Shown here piece after piece: positions 22,875-56,504 of a stretch of DNA of 64,000 nt. Position numbers and translations under genes: made by a program. Numbering within the stretch: position 1 is the first letter of the stretch; each line of letters opens with the position of its first letter. The DNA is from Saccharobesus litoralis (lineage in GTDB: Bacteria > Pseudomonadota > Gammaproteobacteria > Enterobacterales > Alteromonadaceae), in assembly GCF_003063625.1 (NCBI RefSeq), contig NZ_CP026604.1, positions 496,001 to 560,000 of the forward strand. The letters run 5' to 3'. The notes beneath the pieces were generated by a model. The model saw nothing but the letters and a program-made list of their open reading frames with translations, did no database searches and had not been told where the DNA came from.

Positions 22875-24929
22875 ATGAAACTACAAAGCCTTTTTATCAT
22901 CGTTGTATTAGTAAATTTTTTAACTGCTGTTATCGTTTATAGTTTTAGCCAGTTAAGTTTAATCATGCTAAGCGTGTTACTCGTGGTTATTTGCTTGTCA
23001 CTAGGTGCTTTATACAAGGTTATTAAACCCAACTTTAATGCACTGACTAAAACAATCCTTGATAACCCCTCAAACGACGCCTTAAATGAGTTAATAGCCT
23101 CATGTAGCCTCATTGATATTCAAGAAACAATTTCACAGCATGCTGGCTCGACAAATCAAATCAAGCAAAGCTTAAAAACCAATCAAGAGTGCGCTGTCTT
23201 ACTAGCTGATACCTGTGAAGAGCTTGGACATGCTTCAAAAAAGATAAAAAGAAACAATAAAATTCAAGCTGACGCGTCAAATAACATGGCCGCAGCTGTC
23301 GAAGAAATGACAAATAGTATTTCAGTTGTAACCAATCAAGCACAATCAGCCGCTGAACATACAATGGAATCAAGTAAAGTCGCAGATGATAGTGCAAATG
23401 TTATTTTAAGCACCATTGAAGGAATAAGAGACATTTCAGAATCCGTAGAGAAAGCAGCAAATAACATCGCAGCGCTACGCAGTGACAGTGAAAGCATATC
23501 TGATGTAGCCAATATGATTAAAGGCATTGCCGATCAAACCAATTTACTGGCTCTTAATGCAGCCATTGAAGCGGCTCGAGCTGGTGAGCAAGGCAGAGGC
23601 TTTTCAGTTGTCGCCGATGAAGTAAGGCAACTTGCTGAACGCACTTCGCAATCTACCCAAGAAATTAACGAACTACTTGCTCGTATGTTAGATTCTGCCA
23701 AGTTAGCATCAGAAAGTATGTTAACCACTGAGCAAGCGGTGCAAAAAGGAGTCGAAAACGCTCAACAAGCCAGTGATTCAATTAAAGCCATTCGACAAGG
23801 TTCGTCTGCCGCAGTTGAAGAAGTTTCACAAATATCAGTAGCCATCAAAGAGCAAGAGTTAGCCAGCGCTGAAATCGCCAAAAATATTGATCAAATAGCG
23901 CAAATCAGTGCACAAAATAATGAAGCGGTTTCAAAATCAATTCAAGCTTCTGAAAGTTTATATGAAATAAGCCAAACTTTAACTCGTTCTGTAGAAAGCT
24001 GTTTGCTTAACACCAGCCAACAAGAATTGAGATTAAGATCAGCCGATGTTTTAGACGATGATTACCCCAGTGTAAAAGCATTGCATGATATGGCAAATCA
24101 ACTCAATAAAAATAGCAATGGGAATATATCGTTAAAAATATTTACTCAAGGTGCATTTGGTACAGAAACCGACGCACTTGAACAAATGGCTAAAGGCTCT
24201 TTAGATATGGCACGGGTAAACATTGCCCAGTTAAATCATTCCTGCCCTGAATCATTGGTGCCAACCTTGCCCTTTTTGTTTAATTCGGTTCAACACCTAC
24301 ATCGCTGTTTAGATGGGAAACCAGGTGAAATACTAACTCAAGCCTTGTCCAAGGGTGACTTTATCTGTTTGGGCTTGCTCGATAGCGGCTCAAGAAATAT
24401 GTACGCCAGTACGCCAATACGTTCAATTAAAGATATAAAAGGATTACGCCTTCGAGTTCCCCCTTCTAAATTATGGGAAGGTATTGCTCAAGCATTAGGT
24501 ACAGTACCTCATGCCATTCCAATTGAAGATACGAAAACAGCATTACAAACTGGACTCATCGATATGGCTGAAAACAATATATTTGCTTATGAAAGTTTTC
24601 ATCATTATGAGGCTTGTAGTTATTTTTCACGTACCGAGCACGTCATTACCCCAGACGTATTAATGTTTTCCAAAAAAGTTTGGGAAAAACTGTCGGATGA
24701 TCAACAACAAATGATCTTAGCCGCGGCACAACATGCCGTATTGCAAAGCCGGTCTTATTGCAAAACATCTGAACGGCTCGTTGAAAATAAAGCACGGGAG
24801 CATGGTGCAATCTTTGTCGACAATATTGATAAAGCCTCATTCAGCCAATCTATTAAATCGGTATACGACAAATTCATCACTTCTTCAGCCCAGAAAAAAT
24901 TAATTCAGGCGATAAGAGCGATACATTAA
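22875..24929 (+). CDS. Chemoreceptor fused to a C-terminal DctP-type TRAP solute-binding domain
   Basis: 684 residues. Two hydrophobic spans (about 3-24 and 28-48) form a hairpin with almost no periplasmic loop. Residues about 100-380 are an MCP signalling domain, including the highly conserved tip [20 protein letters not shown] and the following [17 protein letters not shown]. From residue about 384 to 665 the sequence is that of a TRAP transporter P-subunit: [46 protein letters not shown] with the conserved Arg, and [17 protein letters not shown]. DctP proteins are normally secreted to the periplasm and bind organic acids. Here the domain follows the cytoplasmic signalling tip and no later membrane span is seen, so it should lie in the cytoplasm. 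There is no TRAP permease gene nearby. The reading frame is continuous. Confidence 0.88.
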
Positions 24930-30503: not shown

Positions 30504-32570
30504 TCACAGGGTGACTGTCTGCATGGATACCGTGTATTCAGTATCTTGCTTGCTTGATAATTTAGGGTGGTAATTTTTAACTTGGCTGGCGGGTAAAGCT
30601 GGGCTGAAATACCAGCCTTGAATATAATCAACACCAAGATTTTGCACAAAGTCTAACTGTTCTTGTGTTTCTACGCCCTCAGCAACTAATTCAAAATCTA
30701 AACTTTGGCAAAGTCGACAAATTTCTTGATACAACACGGCCCCTTTTGGCACACACGCTTCATCGAGCATAGATTTATCTATTTTTATCGTTTGGGCACT
30801 GATTTTCGTCAACATAGAAAGGCAAGAAAAACCCGTTCCAAAATCATCAATTGACACCTGAATTCCAAATGTGCGTAATTCTTTTAACGCCAACTCTATT
30901 TCACTTGAAAACTCCATATAACTAGATTCAAGTAATTCTAATTCGACTTGCTCACCACAATCAGCCAATTGCTCGATTAAGTGTTTGACAAACGCTGGGT
31001 TGATTAAATTATTCGGGTCAATATTAATACTTACCTTGGGACAAAATTGCTCCGTTTGCCACTGTTTAAGTGCTTTGGCGACTTCGCTCACCACCCAGTT
31101 ATCAATGGGTAAAGAAAACCCCTCCTTTTGCAACACATCTAAGAAGTAAGGACCGACAATAGAGCCATCAGGGCGTTGTAAACGAATTAGTGCTTCAAGC
31201 CCATACATACTAGCCGAGCTTATCGACACCTTAGGTTGGTAAAACATAATTAGCTCACCATTATTAACATCGTCAATAGCATTGTGTATCGCACTGACTG
31301 AACGGCGCTCAACGTGATGCTGTTTAACATGGCGTTGCTCACTCAATAAATCCATTCCATCACGCAAAGATAACTTTTTGTGTAAAGCCAACTCAGCCTC
31401 TCGCATGTGCTGCTCTTGGCTACTCGCTAATACAAAGGGTCGATAAATCATCATACCCAGTAGAATAAGGCTAAGCTGAAACAGTACGGCTAAATAACTA
31501 CCGTCAGTCGCCAGAAAAACATTAATTAAGTCCGGCATAACCCAGGTGTGCTGATATTCAATAAATTCAATCCAACCTTGTGTCACAATTGCGAAACCAA
31601 GCCAGCAATTCAACAAGGGCACCAATAAAAACGGAATTAATAATCGAAAATTAAATGCAATAGGCAATGCAAAAATAATAATTTCATTGATATTAAAAAT
31701 AGCAAAAGGTAAAGCAATCAACGCTATGCGACGCGCATGCTCGTCTTTTGAAAATAGCAATATAGCTAAAATTAAAGACCAAGTTGCTCCACCGCCACCA
31801 AAATTAACAAATAAGTCAGTGAATTGATGAATGGCTAAATGAGTAACGATTTCAATTTGATAATAATCAACCACACCATTTGCGGATTGCTCGAACAATA
31901 AATGAAACGTATTTGAGCCATGTAAACCAAAGCCCCACAGCAAATTGGAAATAAATACTCGTAAACTGATCAATACAATGTGATCACTCGTTGCTAAAAA
32001 ACTCACTACAGGTTGGGTTAATACATTAGCTAACTGAGTAAGACTGATTAATAATATAGGCAAAACCAGAACGCAGGTTAAAGAGGGTAATAATAAATTG
32101 ACGTGACGCTTTAAATGGTGGCTTACCGCATTAGATTGGATAAAAATCAGGTTAAACTTATCTTCGGCAGCCTTTAATAAATATGGTGTTATCAACATAA
32201 CAGCAAGCAAGCGGGGATCATTACTAAGAGAAGCTAGATGCAAATGCTCAACCTTAGCTATACTGAATAGCTCAGCAATCAATAATGATGACAACCCTAA
32301 AGCCAACACAGCGATAGCGGGCACGTTAATATTTTTAGAAAAGTGAAACGCAATTGCGATAGCAGCCAATGGGGCAAAACAGATACCTAATGACTGAGAA
32401 ATGCTAAATAGCAGACTAGACAAGTTTGGAGCAATATTAAGCAATTGCAGTACGGAAGAACACAGCGTTACAACAGAGCTAATGATCAAAAAAGGCAATA
32501 GAGAAATAAACGCTTCGCGGATTGAAATCATGAAAGTCGAACCTGCAGTTCTCTCAAGATATAACTTCAC
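30504..32570 (-). CDS. PTS EIIC-like membrane domain fused to an EAL domain
   Basis: 688 residues. Residues 1-390 hold about 10 membrane spans with the fold of cellobiose-type EIIC permeases; GLHGSNTFHLLFEQSANG and FGGGGATWSLILAIL match that family. Residues about 430-680 are an EAL phosphodiesterase with all key residues seen: GLEALIRL, SINIDPNNL, LELLESSY, SIDDFGTGFS, KIDKSM, AEGVETQEQ. It should cleave c-di-GMP in response to something sensed by the membrane domain. No EIIA, EIIB or HPr gene is near, so transport by phosphorylation is doubtful. The start is GTG 32570, with GGGGG upstream; ATG 32531 is an alternative. EIIC-EAL proteins exist in other marine gammaproteobacteria. Confidence 0.85.
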   Translation of the reverse strand: MKLYLERTAGSTFMISIREAFISLLPFLIISSVVTLCSSVLQLLNIAPNLSSLLFSISQSLGICFAPLAAIAIAFHFSKNINVPAIAVLALGLSSLLIAELFSIAKVEHLHLASLSNDPRLLAVMLITPYLLKAAEDKFNLIFIQSNAVSHHLKRHVNLLLPSLTCVLVLPILLISLTQLANVLTQPVVSFLATSDHIVLISLRVFISNLLWGFGLHGSNTFHLLFEQSANGVVDYYQIEIVTHLAIHQFTDLFVNFGGGGATWSLILAILLFSKDEHARRIALIALPFAIFNINEIIIFALPIAFNFRLLIPFLLVPLLNCWLGFAIVTQGWIEFIEYQHTWVMPDLINVFLATDGSYLAVLFQLSLILLGMMIYRPFVLASSQEQHMREAELALHKKLSLRDGMDLLSEQRHVKQHHVERRSVSAIHNAIDDVNNGELIMFYQPKVSISSASMYGLEALIRLQRPDGSIVGPYFLDVLQKEGFSLPIDNWVVSEVAKALKQWQTEQFCPKVSINIDPNNLINPAFVKHLIEQLADCGEQVELELLESSYMEFSSEIELALKELRTFGIQVSIDDFGTGFSCLSMLTKISAQTIKIDKSMLDEACVPKGAVLYQEICRLCQSLDFELVAEGVETQEQLDFVQNLGVDYIQGWYFSPALPASQVKNYHPKLSSKQDTEYTVSMQTVTL

Positions 32571-50466: not shown

Positions 50467-52521
50467 TTAGGCCGCTTGTGACACCTTAAACTGGTTAACA
50501 TAATTATCTAGGCTGGTTTTTGAACGCCCTAAATGATCACATGCATTTGCCGAAATTTGCGCCTCTTGCGCCAACTGCTGAGTATCATCTTTAATCGTAT
50601 GTATACGCTGATTGATTTCACTTGCTACCAAGGTTTGCTCTTCTGCTGCTGTGGCTATCTGAGTTGCCATATTTGAGATAGTATCTAGCTCTTGCTTTAG
50701 GCTAGAAAAATCAGCAACACTACTAACAACAACATCTACTGCACTTTTACCTTGCTCTTGCAAGCGCTCCATACTAAGACAAGCAGTTCGAGCGCCTGAC
50801 TGCAATGACTCAATCTGCGTTCTAATCAACTTGGTCGATTCCTGTGTACGACTGGCCAACGTTCTCACTTCATCAGCAACAACGGCAAACCCTCTACCTT
50901 GCTCCCCTGCTCGCGCCGCCTCAATTGCGGCATTTAAAGCCAAAAGATTAGTTTGCTCAGCAATACCTTGAATGACCGTTAAGACATTGCCAATGACCGC
51001 TGATTCATCATTTAAATGATCAACCTGATTGCGAGTATTGGCCAGTTCAGCAAGCAAATTTTCCATCATATCCCGCGTGGTATGAGCTTTTTCTGCACTA
51101 TTAATGGAGCTTTGGTGTACTTGTTGAACCACATCTGCTGTATTTTGCGATATTGCGGCAACCTCTTGAATGGTTGCTGTCATTTGTTCAACGGCAACTG
51201 ACACACTATCCGTTTGCTCATTTTGATTATGGGTTCTTTGCAGGTTAGCTTGCATGGATGAAGCAACTGAATCAGTTAACTGGCTAATATCCAAAACTTC
51301 GCCCTTAACACTGCCCAAAGCTTGATTAAAGCTATTCAAAAGTAAATTAAAAGCATGACTAACATCCGCCAACTCGTCCTTGCCATTAACCGCTAATTTT
51401 GACCCTACATTTTTGGTTTTTGCCACCTCATCTAACTTATCAGTCAAGCTCTTAAGTGGTGACAAAATTGACGTTAAAATTAACCAAGATACGCCAATAA
51501 TAAACACCAAAACAATCACTAAAAATGCGAAACTAAATGTCACCTGACTTTGCGCATCCGCCAGTAAGCTTTTCGTTTTTTGCTCAATTGTTTTATTCGT
51601 AAAATCAATCACGTTTTGTAAGCGCTGCATGTTATCACCGGTTATTTGTAACCAGTCATTAATAGAAACAATGTGGGTTTTCCCTAGGTTTTTAAGCAAG
51701 CGGGTTCTTAAATTATTAAGCTGCTGAGCTTGCTTTGATTGTAAGTATTGTTTGGTGTAATAAGTCCAAATTTCATCCGATGCGTAAGTTTGTAGCCGTG
51801 AATTAAAATCAGCTTTTTGATGCATAGCCGCTTTCGTTTCACCATGGGCAAACTCATTCCAAAACTTATTGTTTAAAGAACCGAGACCACTGGTCCTCTC
51901 TGATGACAATCGACTATTGATTTCAACTAAAGTTGCATACGCGCCAGCCAACATACTTAAAGCACGATCATTCGCTGCTAACTTAACAACCGAAGCTACA
52001 ATACGTAACATTTGGCTCTCAATATCCAAGTAATGCATACGTACAGGTAACAACCTATTTTCATCATTGGCTAGGGTAAATTTAAGTTGCAGTACATCCA
52101 CATTTTTTCGAATGGTTGGAATATCTGTAGTTAAACGCTGAACTATCTTGTCTAAAACGCTATTAAGCTTAACCTCATGCAAAAACGCTTTATTTTGCTC
52201 TAGGTGACTGAAATAAACCTCTCGTAATTGATTGACTTGAGCCCGACTTTTTTCTAAATCAGACTTAAATTGAGCACCTTTACTACCTGTAGGCTGACCA
52301 CTCAAAAAACCTTGCGAAAAGTCTCTTTCTTGCTGAATAGCACCTAATAAATTACCCGTATGCTGTGCTAGCAGCATGGCCTGCGTTAACGACTTTAACG
52401 AATTTTGTTCAGCTCGCGCAGCCATTAACTGCTGAACACTAAAAAATCCAATCACCAGTGTGGGTAGCAAAGCTAAAATATAGATGCGGGTTTTTATAGT
52501 AAATTGATTAAGAAAGCTCAT
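50467..52521 (-). CDS. Methyl-accepting chemotaxis protein with nitrate/nitrite-sensor-like (NIT) periplasmic domain
   Basis: 684 residues. The first membrane span is at about 10-28 ([16 protein letters not shown]); the periplasmic domain to about 320 has the NIT-type helices [14 protein letters not shown]. The second span ([17 protein letters not shown]) is followed by HAMP, and the signalling domain carries the tip [19 protein letters not shown] and [20 protein letters not shown] domains sense nitrate or nitrite in some proteins. GGAGATC lies before the ATG. Unlike the chemoreceptor at 22.9 kb it has a normal layout and ends after the signalling domain. Confidence 0.9.
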
Positions 52522-52888: not shown

Positions 52889-54913
52889 TTAAGCTTTCGC
52901 GTTTTTGAAAAATATTTTTTTAAAATAAAGCCATTCTTGGTGACTTAACGAACCTAGCTCTTGCAGCTGTTTCAAAGGTAAGTTAATACAGACTCCATAA
53001 CTTTTACCTCGGCTTTCATCACACTGGCTTAATGCTTGCTCTAACTCAACACTAAGCGGAACACCGACTGAATTTGGACGATCGGCAACCTCAGTATCAA
53101 TACCCTGAACAATAGCATTGCCGGCAATCAAACCTAAGTGCTGGTCAATAAGGTCATCCACGCCATCGTTATCGTCGTCGTTGTCAGCATTGTCACCAAT
53201 TAAGTCTTGGTCAAAATCCGACCATTCAGCACTATTTAAAGGAAAAATATCTAGATGATCTAGTACGTTATCACCGTCATCATCTTCGTCTTGATTATTT
53301 CCTAAACCATCACCGTCAGTGTCTGTTGTTTCATCCTGGTTAAGAGGGAAAGCATCTTGTTGATCATTCACACCATCGTTATCGTCGTCTGTATCTGCGT
53401 TATTACCAACACCATCACCATCGGTATCTACAGATTCAGATGGATCGTAGGGAAATGCGTCTAGTTCATTAACAACACCATCATTGTCCCAATCATTATC
53501 AACATAATCTAAATCATGGACGACGCCCGTATCTGGTAAAATCCAAGATCCGCTAACCACTCCTGTATTACCGCGTATTTCAGTATTGGCAACGTTAGCA
53601 TCAAAACAGTTTTCAGATAAACGAAACACTTTGTCACTTGGTGCGTTATCAGCATAGTCATTGTTAAAAAACGTCCAATTCGCAATACCATAAGCATAAA
53701 CACCGTAACGATATATCCCATTACCGGTAAGATAGTTGTTATTAAAGTGAATATTATCTGATTGATATTGACAGTCAGTACCGCTTTGAAAACCTTGGAT
53801 CCATTCGCTGCCAGAGCCGATAAATAAAATCCCTGCTTGCGAACGATCGCCTGGTTCACTCATATTAAATTCGTTACCTAATACACGAATGTGTTGAGCG
53901 CGGTTTTCAATATTAACTAATTTATAAACGCGTGATTGTGCGTATGTCACAGGTAATTGGTCATTAGTGAAAAACCGGTTGCGTTTTAATTTGTCGCTCG
54001 AATGTCCCACTAACACATTTTCGTATCTTGCAAAGGCCACACCTGAATTGATAAAAGTATTTCCTTGAATAATACCAGGGTTACTTGTTGTACCAATGGC
54101 AACACCTGGAGCTTGGCCGTCAGACACACCTTGAATTATACAATTACCGGCACGACTCCAGCCTTCAGTAGCAAGGCAATCGCTCATATCATTACCCGCG
54201 TCTAACGATATCGCGCGCATTCTATTTTTCGGTCCATTAATTGCTGCCATTTCCCATAATGCAGGCGCTTCAAAACGGTTTTTGGTGATTTGTAACGAGT
54301 TTATTTCGGTATAATGTTGATTACGGCGATTAATTTCTATTGCCTTGTGAATAAAATCGCGCACCGTATTATGGCGTATAACAATATCTGCATCTTGCAA
54401 ATCCGTATTTGGCGCTGTCATGTCAATAAAACGAGCACTGCCATCAACTAAAACATTGTTAACTCTGATTGATTGATGGCGGCCATTAAACAAAAATATC
54501 TGTTTATTTTTACCAACAATATTGCCTGTAATGCTAGTGTCACGTAAAAAACGAATGGTTCTAGTGATATTATTAACATCTGAATGACCAGAAAAAATAA
54601 AATTGGCCGATAAAATATTTAAACGCGCATTTGGACCAAAAGAAATGTCGTATTGATTATTGAAGAAAGAAGTGACTTTTTTACTCCATCTCCGAATAGT
54701 TATATTTTGATCAAAGCTAAGATCATTGGTGATAACAACCTCGGCAACGTCATTGTTTTGAAGGCCATCCACAAACTGCTGAGTATTCGCTGCTCCACAT
54801 TTACTTGCTCCACCTGTTGCTTGACAAGGCGCTGGAGCGGCAACTGCATTAGACATTGCCGCAAATGTCACTGCGGGTATAAAAAGCTTTTTAAGCAATG
54901 AATTTATTACCAT
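52889..54913 (-). CDS. Secreted beta-helix protein with TSP type-3 calcium repeats, family unknown
   Basis: 674 residues with a signal peptide (LFIPAVTFAAMSNAVA). Residues about 30-480 look like a right-handed parallel beta-helix: stacked short strands with recurring N/D turns such as LQITKNRFEAP and IIQGNTFINSGVAFARYENVLVG. Conserved-looking pieces include ISLDAGNDMSDC and GDRSQAGILFIGSGSEW. Residues about 490-600 hold six or so thrombospondin type-3 loops (DTDGDGVGNNADTDDDNDGV and similar), which bind calcium. A 70-residue tail follows. The fold is used by polysaccharide lyases and GH28/GH82-type enzymes, but I could not match this one to a known lyase or hydrolase. A truncated paralogue lies directly upstream. 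Function in the galactan locus is plausible but unproven. Confidence 0.75.
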   Translation of the reverse strand: MVINSLLKKLFIPAVTFAAMSNAVAAPAPCQATGGASKCGAANTQQFVDGLQNNDVAEVVITNDLSFDQNITIRRWSKKVTSFFNNQYDISFGPNARLNILSANFIFSGHSDVNNITRTIRFLRDTSITGNIVGKNKQIFLFNGRHQSIRVNNVLVDGSARFIDMTAPNTDLQDADIVIRHNTVRDFIHKAIEINRRNQHYTEINSLQITKNRFEAPALWEMAAINGPKNRMRAISLDAGNDMSDCLATEGWSRAGNCIIQGVSDGQAPGVAIGTTSNPGIIQGNTFINSGVAFARYENVLVGHSSDKLKRNRFFTNDQLPVTYAQSRVYKLVNIENRAQHIRVLGNEFNMSEPGDRSQAGILFIGSGSEWIQGFQSGTDCQYQSDNIHFNNNYLTGNGIYRYGVYAYGIANWTFFNNDYADNAPSDKVFRLSENCFDANVANTEIRGNTGVVSGSWILPDTGVVHDLDYVDNDWDNDGVVNELDAFPYDPSESVDTDGDGVGNNADTDDDNDGVNDQQDAFPLNQDETTDTDGDGLGNNQDEDDDGDNVLDHLDIFPLNSAEWSDFDQDLIGDNADNDDDNDGVDDLIDQHLGLIAGNAIVQGIDTEVADRPNSVGVPLSVELEQALSQCDESRGKSYGVCINLPLKQLQELGSLSHQEWLYFKKIFFKNAKA

Positions 54914-55093: not shown

Positions 55094-56504
55094 TTATAAG
55101 TCGTGAGTAACGCCACTACTTGGGAAAGCCCAGGTATTGGGTACTAAATTGGTATTGCCTAAAATAGTCACATTAACATCAGTTGAGTCGTAACATAACG
55201 AACTGCTGAGGGTTAGTGTTTTAGTGCTAACGGGTTGATTATTGAAATTGTTATTGTTTACGCTCCATTGTGCGACACCATAGGAATAAATCGCATAACG
55301 GTATAAAGCACTACCGGTTAATGTGTTGTTATTAAAAGCGATAAAGTTCGATTTATAGTTACAATCTTGACCGCTCTGAAAACCAGATATCCATTCACTA
55401 CCCGCACCAATAAACATGATCCCCGCTTGTGATCTGTCACCTGGATTGGTGAAATTGAACTCATTACCTAATATATCAATATTACGCGATAAGTTTTCAA
55501 CATTGACTAATTTGTATACAGGCACGTCGCTATATTCAACCGGTAATTGATTATTGGTAAAAAAAGCGGTTTCTCTTAGTCGTGTCAGTAGCATGCCCGA
55601 CTAATATATTTTCGTAACGAGCAAAGGCAACCCCGACATTAATAAATGTATTACCCTGAATAAGCCCTGGGTTAACACTAGTCCCAACGTCGACACTAGG
55701 GGCAACACCATTAGATACTTTTTGCACTGTGCAATTACCTAAATGACTCCAACTTGGATTATTTAAACAGTCCGTCATATCATTTCCTGCATCGAGTGAA
55801 ATCGCTCGAATTCTATTTCCAGGGCCATTAATCGCTTTCATTTCCCATAACGCAGGCGCTTCAAAGCGGTTATTAATAATTTGTAAAGAAGCGATATGCG
55901 TGTAATTTTGATAACGTCGATTAATACCAATGGCCTTTTGAATAAAATCACGCACCGTATTATGACGGATGATGATATTTGCATTTTGTAGATCGGTACT
56001 AGCACCAGTCATGTCAATAAAGCGCGCGCTGCCGTCAACTAATACATTATTAATTCGTACATAACTGTGTGCGCCATTAAAGTAAAATATTTGCTTATTT
56101 CTTCCGACAATATTGTTTGAAATTGACGTGTTACGTAAAAAACGAATGGTGCGAGTATTGTTAGTTGAGTCGCTATGACCAGAAAATGTAAATGAGCCGG
56201 AGGTAATATTCAGCCTTGCGTCGGGACCAAATAATATATCATAAGCACCATTGTTAAGTGACGTGACTTTTTTTGTTGAGCGACTAATTGGTATACTTTG
56301 GTTAAAACTTAAATTACTACCTATAACCACCTCTTCGACGCTAGTGTTTTTTAAACCATCTATAAATTGCTGGTTAGTATACGCGCCACATTTAGTAGAA
56401 CCGCCAGTCGCAACGCAAGCACTTGGTGCGGCATAAACATAAGCCATATGAAAAACGGCCAAGCTAAGTACTGAAATTGATGTAATCATTTGTTTAAATT
56501 TCAT
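55094..56504 (-). pseudogene. Paralogous beta-helix protein gene, frameshifted in an A7 tract
   Basis: The first frame (56504 to 55551) encodes 317 residues and ends soon after KRNRFF; the second frame (55594 to 55094) takes over with FFTNNQLPVEYS. Together they align with residues 1-480 of the neighbour gene at 52889-54913 (GNDMTDC, DRSQAGIMFIGAGSEW). The switch is in seven A residues at 55559-55565; six would restore one frame. The restored protein would be about 470 residues and stops after THDL, exactly where the neighbour enters its TSP3 repeats, so it lacks those. A signal peptide (VLSLAVFHMAYVYA) is present. It may be a true pseudogene, a phase-variable gene or a sequencing slip. Confidence 0.8.

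Follow-up and report, generated by a model that had tools for sequence, protein, structure and literature searches.

A chemoreceptor of Saccharobesus litoralis with a C-terminal TRAP solute-binding domain predicted to lie in the cytoplasm

Whether bacteria steer by compounds outside the cell or by those already inside it is an old question, and most of the receptors that sense the inside report general redox or energy state. In the window analyzed here, a 64,000-nucleotide stretch of the Saccharobesus litoralis genome, a single gene joins an MCP signaling domain to a DctP-type TRAP solute-binding domain, raising the question of what such a binding protein does on the inner end of a chemoreceptor. 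An inside sensor that is a recognizable, specific binding protein with a predictable ligand would make it possible to test directly whether sensing inside the cell can be metabolite-specific, and would demonstrate cytoplasmic re-use of a solute-binding protein. The reading favored here, with a probability of roughly 0.6, is an inside-out chemoreceptor that has lost its four-helix (4HB) sensor, gained a TRAP binding domain and senses a cytoplasmic sugar acid, most likely free hexuronate; ligand, lobe closure, coupling and chemotaxis are the parts of it that we infer. The features of the gene, in window coordinates, are:

22875..24929, + strand: fusion chemoreceptor gene, MCP plus DctP, 684 aa (frame and Pfam)
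22875..23030, + strand: membrane hairpin of two spans, residues 1-52, its periplasmic turn only a few residues long (hydropathy; AlphaFold2 helices 3-22 and 28-63, of low confidence there)
23109..24002, + strand: cytoplasmic MCP helical hairpin, residues 79-376 (Pfam MCPsignal 163-344; AlphaFold2 helices 79-235 and 237-376)
23583..23603, + strand: hairpin tip motif GEQGRGF, residues 237-243 (invariant in a five-row alignment)
23850..23867, + strand: methylation-site-like EQELAS, residues 326-331 (motif scan)
24003..24026, + strand: junction or linker, residues 377-384 (alignment of copies)
24027..24926, + strand: DctP (TRAP solute-binding) domain without a signal peptide, residues 385-684 (Pfam, NCBIfam, structure search)
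24393..24395, + strand: R507, counterpart of the supporting ligand Arg of TRAP binding proteins (14 of 14 copies; role from the available part of PMC11668362)
24453..24455, + strand: R527, counterpart of the carboxylate-clamping Arg (14 of 14 copies; available parts of PMC11668362 and PMC5812351)
24573..24575, + strand: N567, counterpart of the supporting ligand Asn (13 of 14 copies; available part of PMC11668362)

The frame runs on the + strand for 684 codons from its ATG without an internal stop. Pfam places MCPsignal at residues 163-344 (135 bits, E 3e-39, cut-off 34.6) and DctP at residues 391-667 (209 bits, E 1e-61, profile positions 3-283 of 286), and NCBIfam names the second half of the protein TRAP_S1. 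These matches, together with hydropathy and the recurrence of the architecture elsewhere, bear out the sequence-only reading, in which one open frame joined a membrane hairpin, an MCP domain and a DctP domain. A 24-residue segment at the hairpin tip of the window's MCP is invariant across the five alignment rows, and its GEQGRGF tip is what we take to be the CheA/CheW binding place of known MCPs. The motif scan finds one methylation-motif-like site in this MCP, at residues 323-331, the EQELAS type of sequence being presumably an MCP methylation-site motif. Pfam returns no HAMP match in the window's copy, so that the usual signal path is predicted to be altered in it.

The same fusion is found well outside the window's organism. 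Full-length homologues occur in Uliginosibacterium sp. 31-16 (two copies), U. aquaticum and a Rhodocyclales MAG (two copies in the MAG's genome), and the total stands at 15 copies in 11 genomes: 12 long frames, two copies cut at contig ends and one broken. Because the frame lies within a 5.66 Mb contig and the same fusion is present elsewhere, it is due neither to chance nor to an assembly join. The idea that an assembly error or a recent frameshift fused two genes can draw on two irregular copies. The fusion of Ca. Dactylopiibacterium carminicum carries two in-frame TAG codons, one at the domain junction (L021 ~11069) and one further downstream, and copy 1 of genome G609 leaves the model 13 positions early, its 3' end being other sequence and probably an assembly join at that place. 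Against this artefact stand the 12 long frames and two contig-edge copies in 10 genomes, the junction common to the copies and the window's uninterrupted frame, and its probability is negligible. An assembly join had been expected to reveal itself through separate genes in related genomes or through the lack of any homologue sharing the fusion; recurrence in other genomes ruled it out, and the one departure is the stop at the junction in Ca. Dactylopiibacterium carminicum, a gene that is probably decaying.

The distribution of the fusion is narrow and uneven. It is present in 10 of 297 genomes of the Rhodocyclales-type family of Uliginosibacterium sp. 31-16 (one copy being the broken one, and four of the 10 genomes having been known from an earlier homologue search). 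The window's own family yields it in only one of 295 genomes, the window's own (E up to 1e-160), and the architecture is shared instead by that Rhodocyclales-type family. Likewise, the window's genome is the single carrier among 59 relatives (E up to 1e-60), among 369 genomes of its class (1e-130) and among 398 of its phylum, and Uliginosibacterium sp. 31-16 is the single carrier among 349 genomes of its order. A wide spread of the fusion was rejected on the class, phylum and order counts, and vertical inheritance in the window's family on those of the family and the 59 relatives. Among plasmids, 21 records match, none of them covering more than 80% of the query. All of these searches target relatives of the window's fusion rather than unrelated MCP-DctP fusions, and the profile searches scored the best few candidates per genome, up to three in the rows listed. 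Presence in the organism's own genome alone within its family, set against 10 of 297 Rhodocyclales-type genomes, suggests that horizontal transfer lies behind the distribution.

Residues 1-52 of the window's copy form one merged hydrophobic stretch, the hairpin, after which hydropathy finds no other; in the 13 other copies, two of which are contig-edge pieces starting inside the MCP part, any such stretch is over by position 121 of the extracted sequence. Neither hydropathy nor reading of the sequence reveals a signal peptide before DctP, and by reading of the alignments the fused domain begins where the mature part of its secreted relatives begins. Lacking both a signal peptide and a later membrane span, the DctP domain is predicted to be cytoplasmic and close to the membrane, with the second MCP helix ending just a few residues before it. 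The earlier proposal that neither a signal nor a span precedes DctP, leaving it on the cytoplasmic side, thus agrees with the hydropathy of all 14 copies; its placement at the cytoplasmic tip needs correction, because the MCP hairpin returns towards the membrane, which puts DctP at the membrane-near end and not at the signaling tip. The distance from the tip motif to the domain is 148-149 residues in the 10 of 14 copies measured (the search pattern missed or misplaced the other four), and the stretch N348-A390 spans 43 or 44 residues in all 14. In the AlphaFold2 model of the whole protein, helices 3-22 and 28-63 are followed by the long hairpin 79-235/237-376, turning at about residue 236, and by DctP elements from residue 385, where the first strand lies; built from five sequences and with a mean pLDDT of 61.2, this monomeric model is weak and silent on coupling. 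The DctP domain alone models better (pLDDT 72.8, pTM 0.73), with 4mij (Z 31.3, rmsd 2.8, 293 aligned), 4xfe (31.2), 4mhf (31.1) and 4p47 (31.1) as structure neighbours, rows within 1 Z being counted as tied.

TRAP binding proteins hold the acid group of the ligand by two Arg and one Asn, as set out in the available part of PMC11668362, and the main ligand Arg also figures in the accessible portion of PMC5812351. Their counterparts R507, R527 and N567 were identified from the alignment and from their spacing (20 and 40 residues) rather than from structural coordinates; R507, R527 and H589 are kept in all 14 fusion copies and N567 in 13. R527 belongs to the LRLRVPPS segment of the DctP part, and its presence in every copy supports the earlier claim that the binding-site Arg segment is retained. 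The deviating copy, L133 of genome G565, has lost N567 and N568 (AENN replaced by AGEGD) with both Arg remaining; its ligand may differ, and binding is perhaps not universal among the fusions. The same clamp residues are carried by the four nearest transporter DctPs and by a solo DctP of the window's genome. In four pairs of relatives, none of which includes the window's copy, dN/dS is 0.039, 0.095, 0.119 and 0.167 for DctP and 0.014, 0.098, 0.053 and 0.132 for the MCP part, rough values given a high dS of 0.67-1.77. DctP is under purifying selection in these relatives at levels comparable to the MCP part, and its low dN/dS argues that the domain is not kept merely as ballast. The fused domain most likely works like DctP in ligand capture.

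The best-scoring solved sequences for the domain are 4ovr, 4mhf/4mij, 4n8y, 4n15/4ln5 and 4x8r, among which we take 4ovr, 4mhf/4mij and 4n15/4ln5 to be uronate binders. 4n8y binds galacturonate and 4x8r glucuronate, according to the available part of PMC11668362. Trees, gene contexts and structures all group the fused DctP by sequence with hexuronate-type TRAP proteins. The transporter DctP of L149, 44% identical to the window's domain and as close to it as any fusion, is accompanied by DctM, by an L-arabinonate/sugar-acid dehydratase (983 bits vs cut-off 882) and by a gene at L149:2726-3580 that reads by sequence as a uronate dehydrogenase, whose sole NCBIfam match, to Azf glucose-6-phosphate dehydrogenase, is below cut-off. 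At L150, DctM is accompanied by a gene resembling fructuronate reductase, whose score stays below cut-off (442 vs 603); L151 and L152 have permease-like neighbours, among which no sugar-acid gene was recognized. In the window's genome, three UxaC matches (two of which pass the cut-off as glucuronate isomerase) and a cluster of KduI, KduD and a galacturonidase-like gene (this one below cut-off) that also contains a DctP and a DctM gene make a cytoplasmic hexuronate pool plausible; UxaC may keep free hexuronate in the cytoplasm low. The window's domain is the most diverged of the fusions (end branch 1.27), and its ligand may have shifted, the comparison having covered the clamp residues. On these grounds, the receptor most likely senses a cytoplasmic hexuronate-like sugar acid.

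The fusion gene is not part of a uronate locus. Both flanking genes lie on the opposite strand, and the locus holds an agarase-type CBM protein, GH2, GH16 and sulfatase-like genes, a setting that does not clearly point to hexuronate. In 14 stretches around the other copies (13 containing a copy, one flanking), no gene family besides the receptor/DctP group recurs in more than three, and eight window neighbours searched in these stretches gave a single weak match, to an RND-type pump protein at 24% identity. A tie to the neighbouring polysaccharide locus was rejected, as no neighbour family is widely shared among the other copies. The sequence-only reading had proposed a cytoplasmic organic or sugar acid made by the catabolic locus; a sugar-acid ligand remains likely, and the link to the neighbouring locus was not found. 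Its remark that no TRAP permease is near is upheld by the whole genome, in which the nearest of four DctM matches is about 0.94 Mb from the fusion.

Several other gene arrangements deserve mention in their own right. Within the window, a PTS_EIIC membrane domain is joined to an EAL (c-di-GMP phosphodiesterase) domain at 30504-32570 (- strand), and a second MCP with a NIT sensor and HAMP lies at 50467-52521 (- strand) within a sulfatase/glycosidase stretch. Two adjacent and similar secreted-looking proteins at 52889-54913 and 55551-56504 (- strand), the second much shorter, resemble, by reading, a duplication with decay. In two Uliginosibacterium genomes (L154:6870-11157, + strand; L156:4637-8924, - strand; family searches on L154 only), a secreted-looking DctP gene adjoins genes for an amino-acid-type binding protein and a sensor histidine kinase-like protein, as if two solute-binding proteins fed one kinase.

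In a DctP tree without the solo DctP of the window's genome, the 14 fused domains form one clade (99/95), the nearest rows outside it being four TRAP binding proteins of the same bacteria, and the window's row is sister to the other 13 fusions (88/75). In the MCP tree, built from the best 45 of 124 distinct matches and 16 own-genome MCPs, the 13 labelled fused MCPs fall together in a clade (99/96) that also takes in one contig-end MCP row; the window lies among the Rhodocyclales-type copies, on weak inner branches (86/64). L026, which runs to a contig end, did not receive the fusion label, and the contig-edge fusions G500 copy 2 and G609 copy 2 are present in the DctP trees and absent from the MCP tree. 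The grouping of the fusions in the MCP tree and in the DctP tree free of the solo gene points, most simply, to one origin.

The solo DctP gene (C1:725385-726350; L153:7386-8351, + strand) encodes 322 aa beginning MNEVYESQSYAQ, with no signal peptide visible by eye and no TRAP permease alongside. Within this genome it is the fused domain's closest relative (39%), and it retains the complete clamp. In a 28-row tree, drawn from 30 distinct matches with L104 (a Dactylopiibacterium fragment) and L105 (a repeat of L147) left out, it is sister to the window's fused domain (99/98), inside the fused clade, and with it in the tree an AU test rejects a clade made up of just the 14 fusions (p 0.0137). Once the window's row is removed, it no longer groups with the fusions (48/11), and it sits on a long branch; the trees dropping either the window's row or the solo DctP hold 22 rows each. 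It is possible that the solo DctP descended from the fused receptor as a released copy of the captured domain.

The sister receptors L113 and L107 have a periplasmic 4HB_MCP_1 sensor and HAMP, and L108 is a sister MCP fragment from G424, the genome with the broken fusion. In all three the chain stops at YKV, 142 residues after the tip motif begins. The same YKV stands at that place in three of 12 fusions tested, the others having YRV, YRI, FRL and similar and the window CLL, and the fusions tested run from there through a few residues into DctP. A scan of seven fusions turned up no sensor family in the periplasmic part of any of them, and HAMP over cut-off in four. It thus seems that in this family an inside sensor has taken the place of an outside one. 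In the likely history, the periplasmic sensor was lost, a signal-less DctP was joined in frame once, in the Rhodocyclales-type group, and the fusion later passed to the window's lineage. With a GC content of 0.393 the window's gene matches the window (0.398; other long copies 0.48-0.65), which argues that the transfer, if it happened, was not recent. A bolder history can be advanced tentatively: in a single event a whole periplasmic nutrient-binding protein would have crossed the membrane, an inside sensor replacing an outside one, and a lineage of receptors would thereby have begun to steer cells by the internal level of a nutrient that its kin import; in the window's organism, the domain may then have been freed again as the cytosolic DctP at C1:725385-726350, which would be the beginning of a family of sugar-acid signaling proteins acting wholly inside the cell.

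The mechanism proposed for the inside-out chemoreceptor would begin with an ancestral MCP that loses its periplasmic four-helix sensor and, at its natural C-terminus, acquires, in its mature form, a TRAP binding protein of the hexuronate or sugar-acid group. A cytoplasmic sugar acid, most likely D-glucuronate or D-galacturonate en route to UxaC, would bind between the two DctP lobes through R507, R527 and N567, and the lobes would close on it. Their closure would pull on the short, length-conserved junction and move the end of the second MCP helix; the near-constant length of the junction favors such mechanical coupling over a loose tether. The adaptation bundle would then repack and change CheA activity, and the cell would swim according to its internal pool of the compound.

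The readings that compete with this mechanism differ from it to unequal degrees. The nearest keeps the architecture and the cytoplasmic sensing and changes the ligand, for instance to a sugar acid released when algal galactan is broken down, to an aldonate or 2-keto-3-deoxy acid, or to a dicarboxylate. The divergence of the window's copy, the proximity of the agarase/sulfatase locus and the many acids taken by TRAP binding proteins (accessible portion of PMC5812351) all speak for it, but two of the four nearest transporter relatives sit in sugar-acid contexts, two of the best-scoring structures bind hexuronates and the gene's place is not conserved, which makes the local locus weak evidence; we consider such a ligand unlikely, although less so than the remaining readings. 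A more drastic change would be a DctP that no longer senses a ligand and serves as scaffold, dimer brace or docking site, the receptor reporting, for example, membrane or energy state through its hairpin. The copy without N567/N568 would fit this, as would the cytosolic proteins with other functions that match solute-binding profiles (PMC9602780, in the part available); the clamp Arg retained in 14 of 14 copies and purifying selection comparable to that on the MCP part in four pairs of relatives render it improbable.

The location of the domain could also be questioned, since solute-binding proteins are normally extracytosolic, as stated in the accessible text of PMC9602780, and the C-terminal DctP might be exported by an unusual route, or lie outside through inverted topology, and sense an outside ligand. 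The hairpin is found only at the N-terminus, however, with no later hydrophobic stretch in any of the 14 copies, and inverted topology would place the CheA/CheW tip in the periplasm, so that export is very improbable. The inside-out chemoreceptor, probably sensing a cytoplasmic hexuronate-like acid, is the reading we retain.

The titles and abstract beginnings of the open literature searched contain no MCP-DctP fusion, most subscription papers being outside that scope. The canonical MCPs with a periplasmic 4HB sensor, represented by L113 and L107, belong to the same signaling clade and share the same coiled-coil C-terminal end; they carry 4HB_MCP_1 and HAMP, whereas the fusions scanned lack that sensor and the window's copy also lacks a HAMP match. 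With the hexuronate-group TRAP proteins (4n8y, 4x8r; 4mij/4mhf, 4ovr), the fusion shares the same full-length fold (Z ~30-31) and the R/R/N clamp, and in the tree its DctP is near TRAP proteins whose genes have sugar-acid genes beside them. Unlike DctP proteins of TRAP systems, it has no signal peptide and no DctQM partner, is joined to an MCP and is predicted to be cytoplasmic. It is thus an MCP by its signaling domain and not a TRAP transport component, because the signal peptide of such a component is lacking and no DctM match lies within 0.9 Mb.

CZB and hemerythrin are examples of C-terminal cytoplasmic sensors of chemoreceptors, and it is among chemoreceptors with a cytoplasmic C-terminal sensor that the fusion belongs. 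Receptors in which the sensor likewise follows the MCP domain are described for archaea in the available part of PMC9680633, where SBP_bac sensors are listed, none seen there as DctP or as C-terminal, whereas the sensor of the fusion is a whole two-lobe TRAP binding protein. At least 13 families of solute-binding proteins stimulate receptors when loaded with ligand, according to the accessible portion of PMC9602780, and such a protein is used for signaling in both cases; in the systems covered there it is separate and extracytosolic and binds the receptor's sensor domain, whereas in the fusion it is covalently attached and, by prediction, inside the cell.
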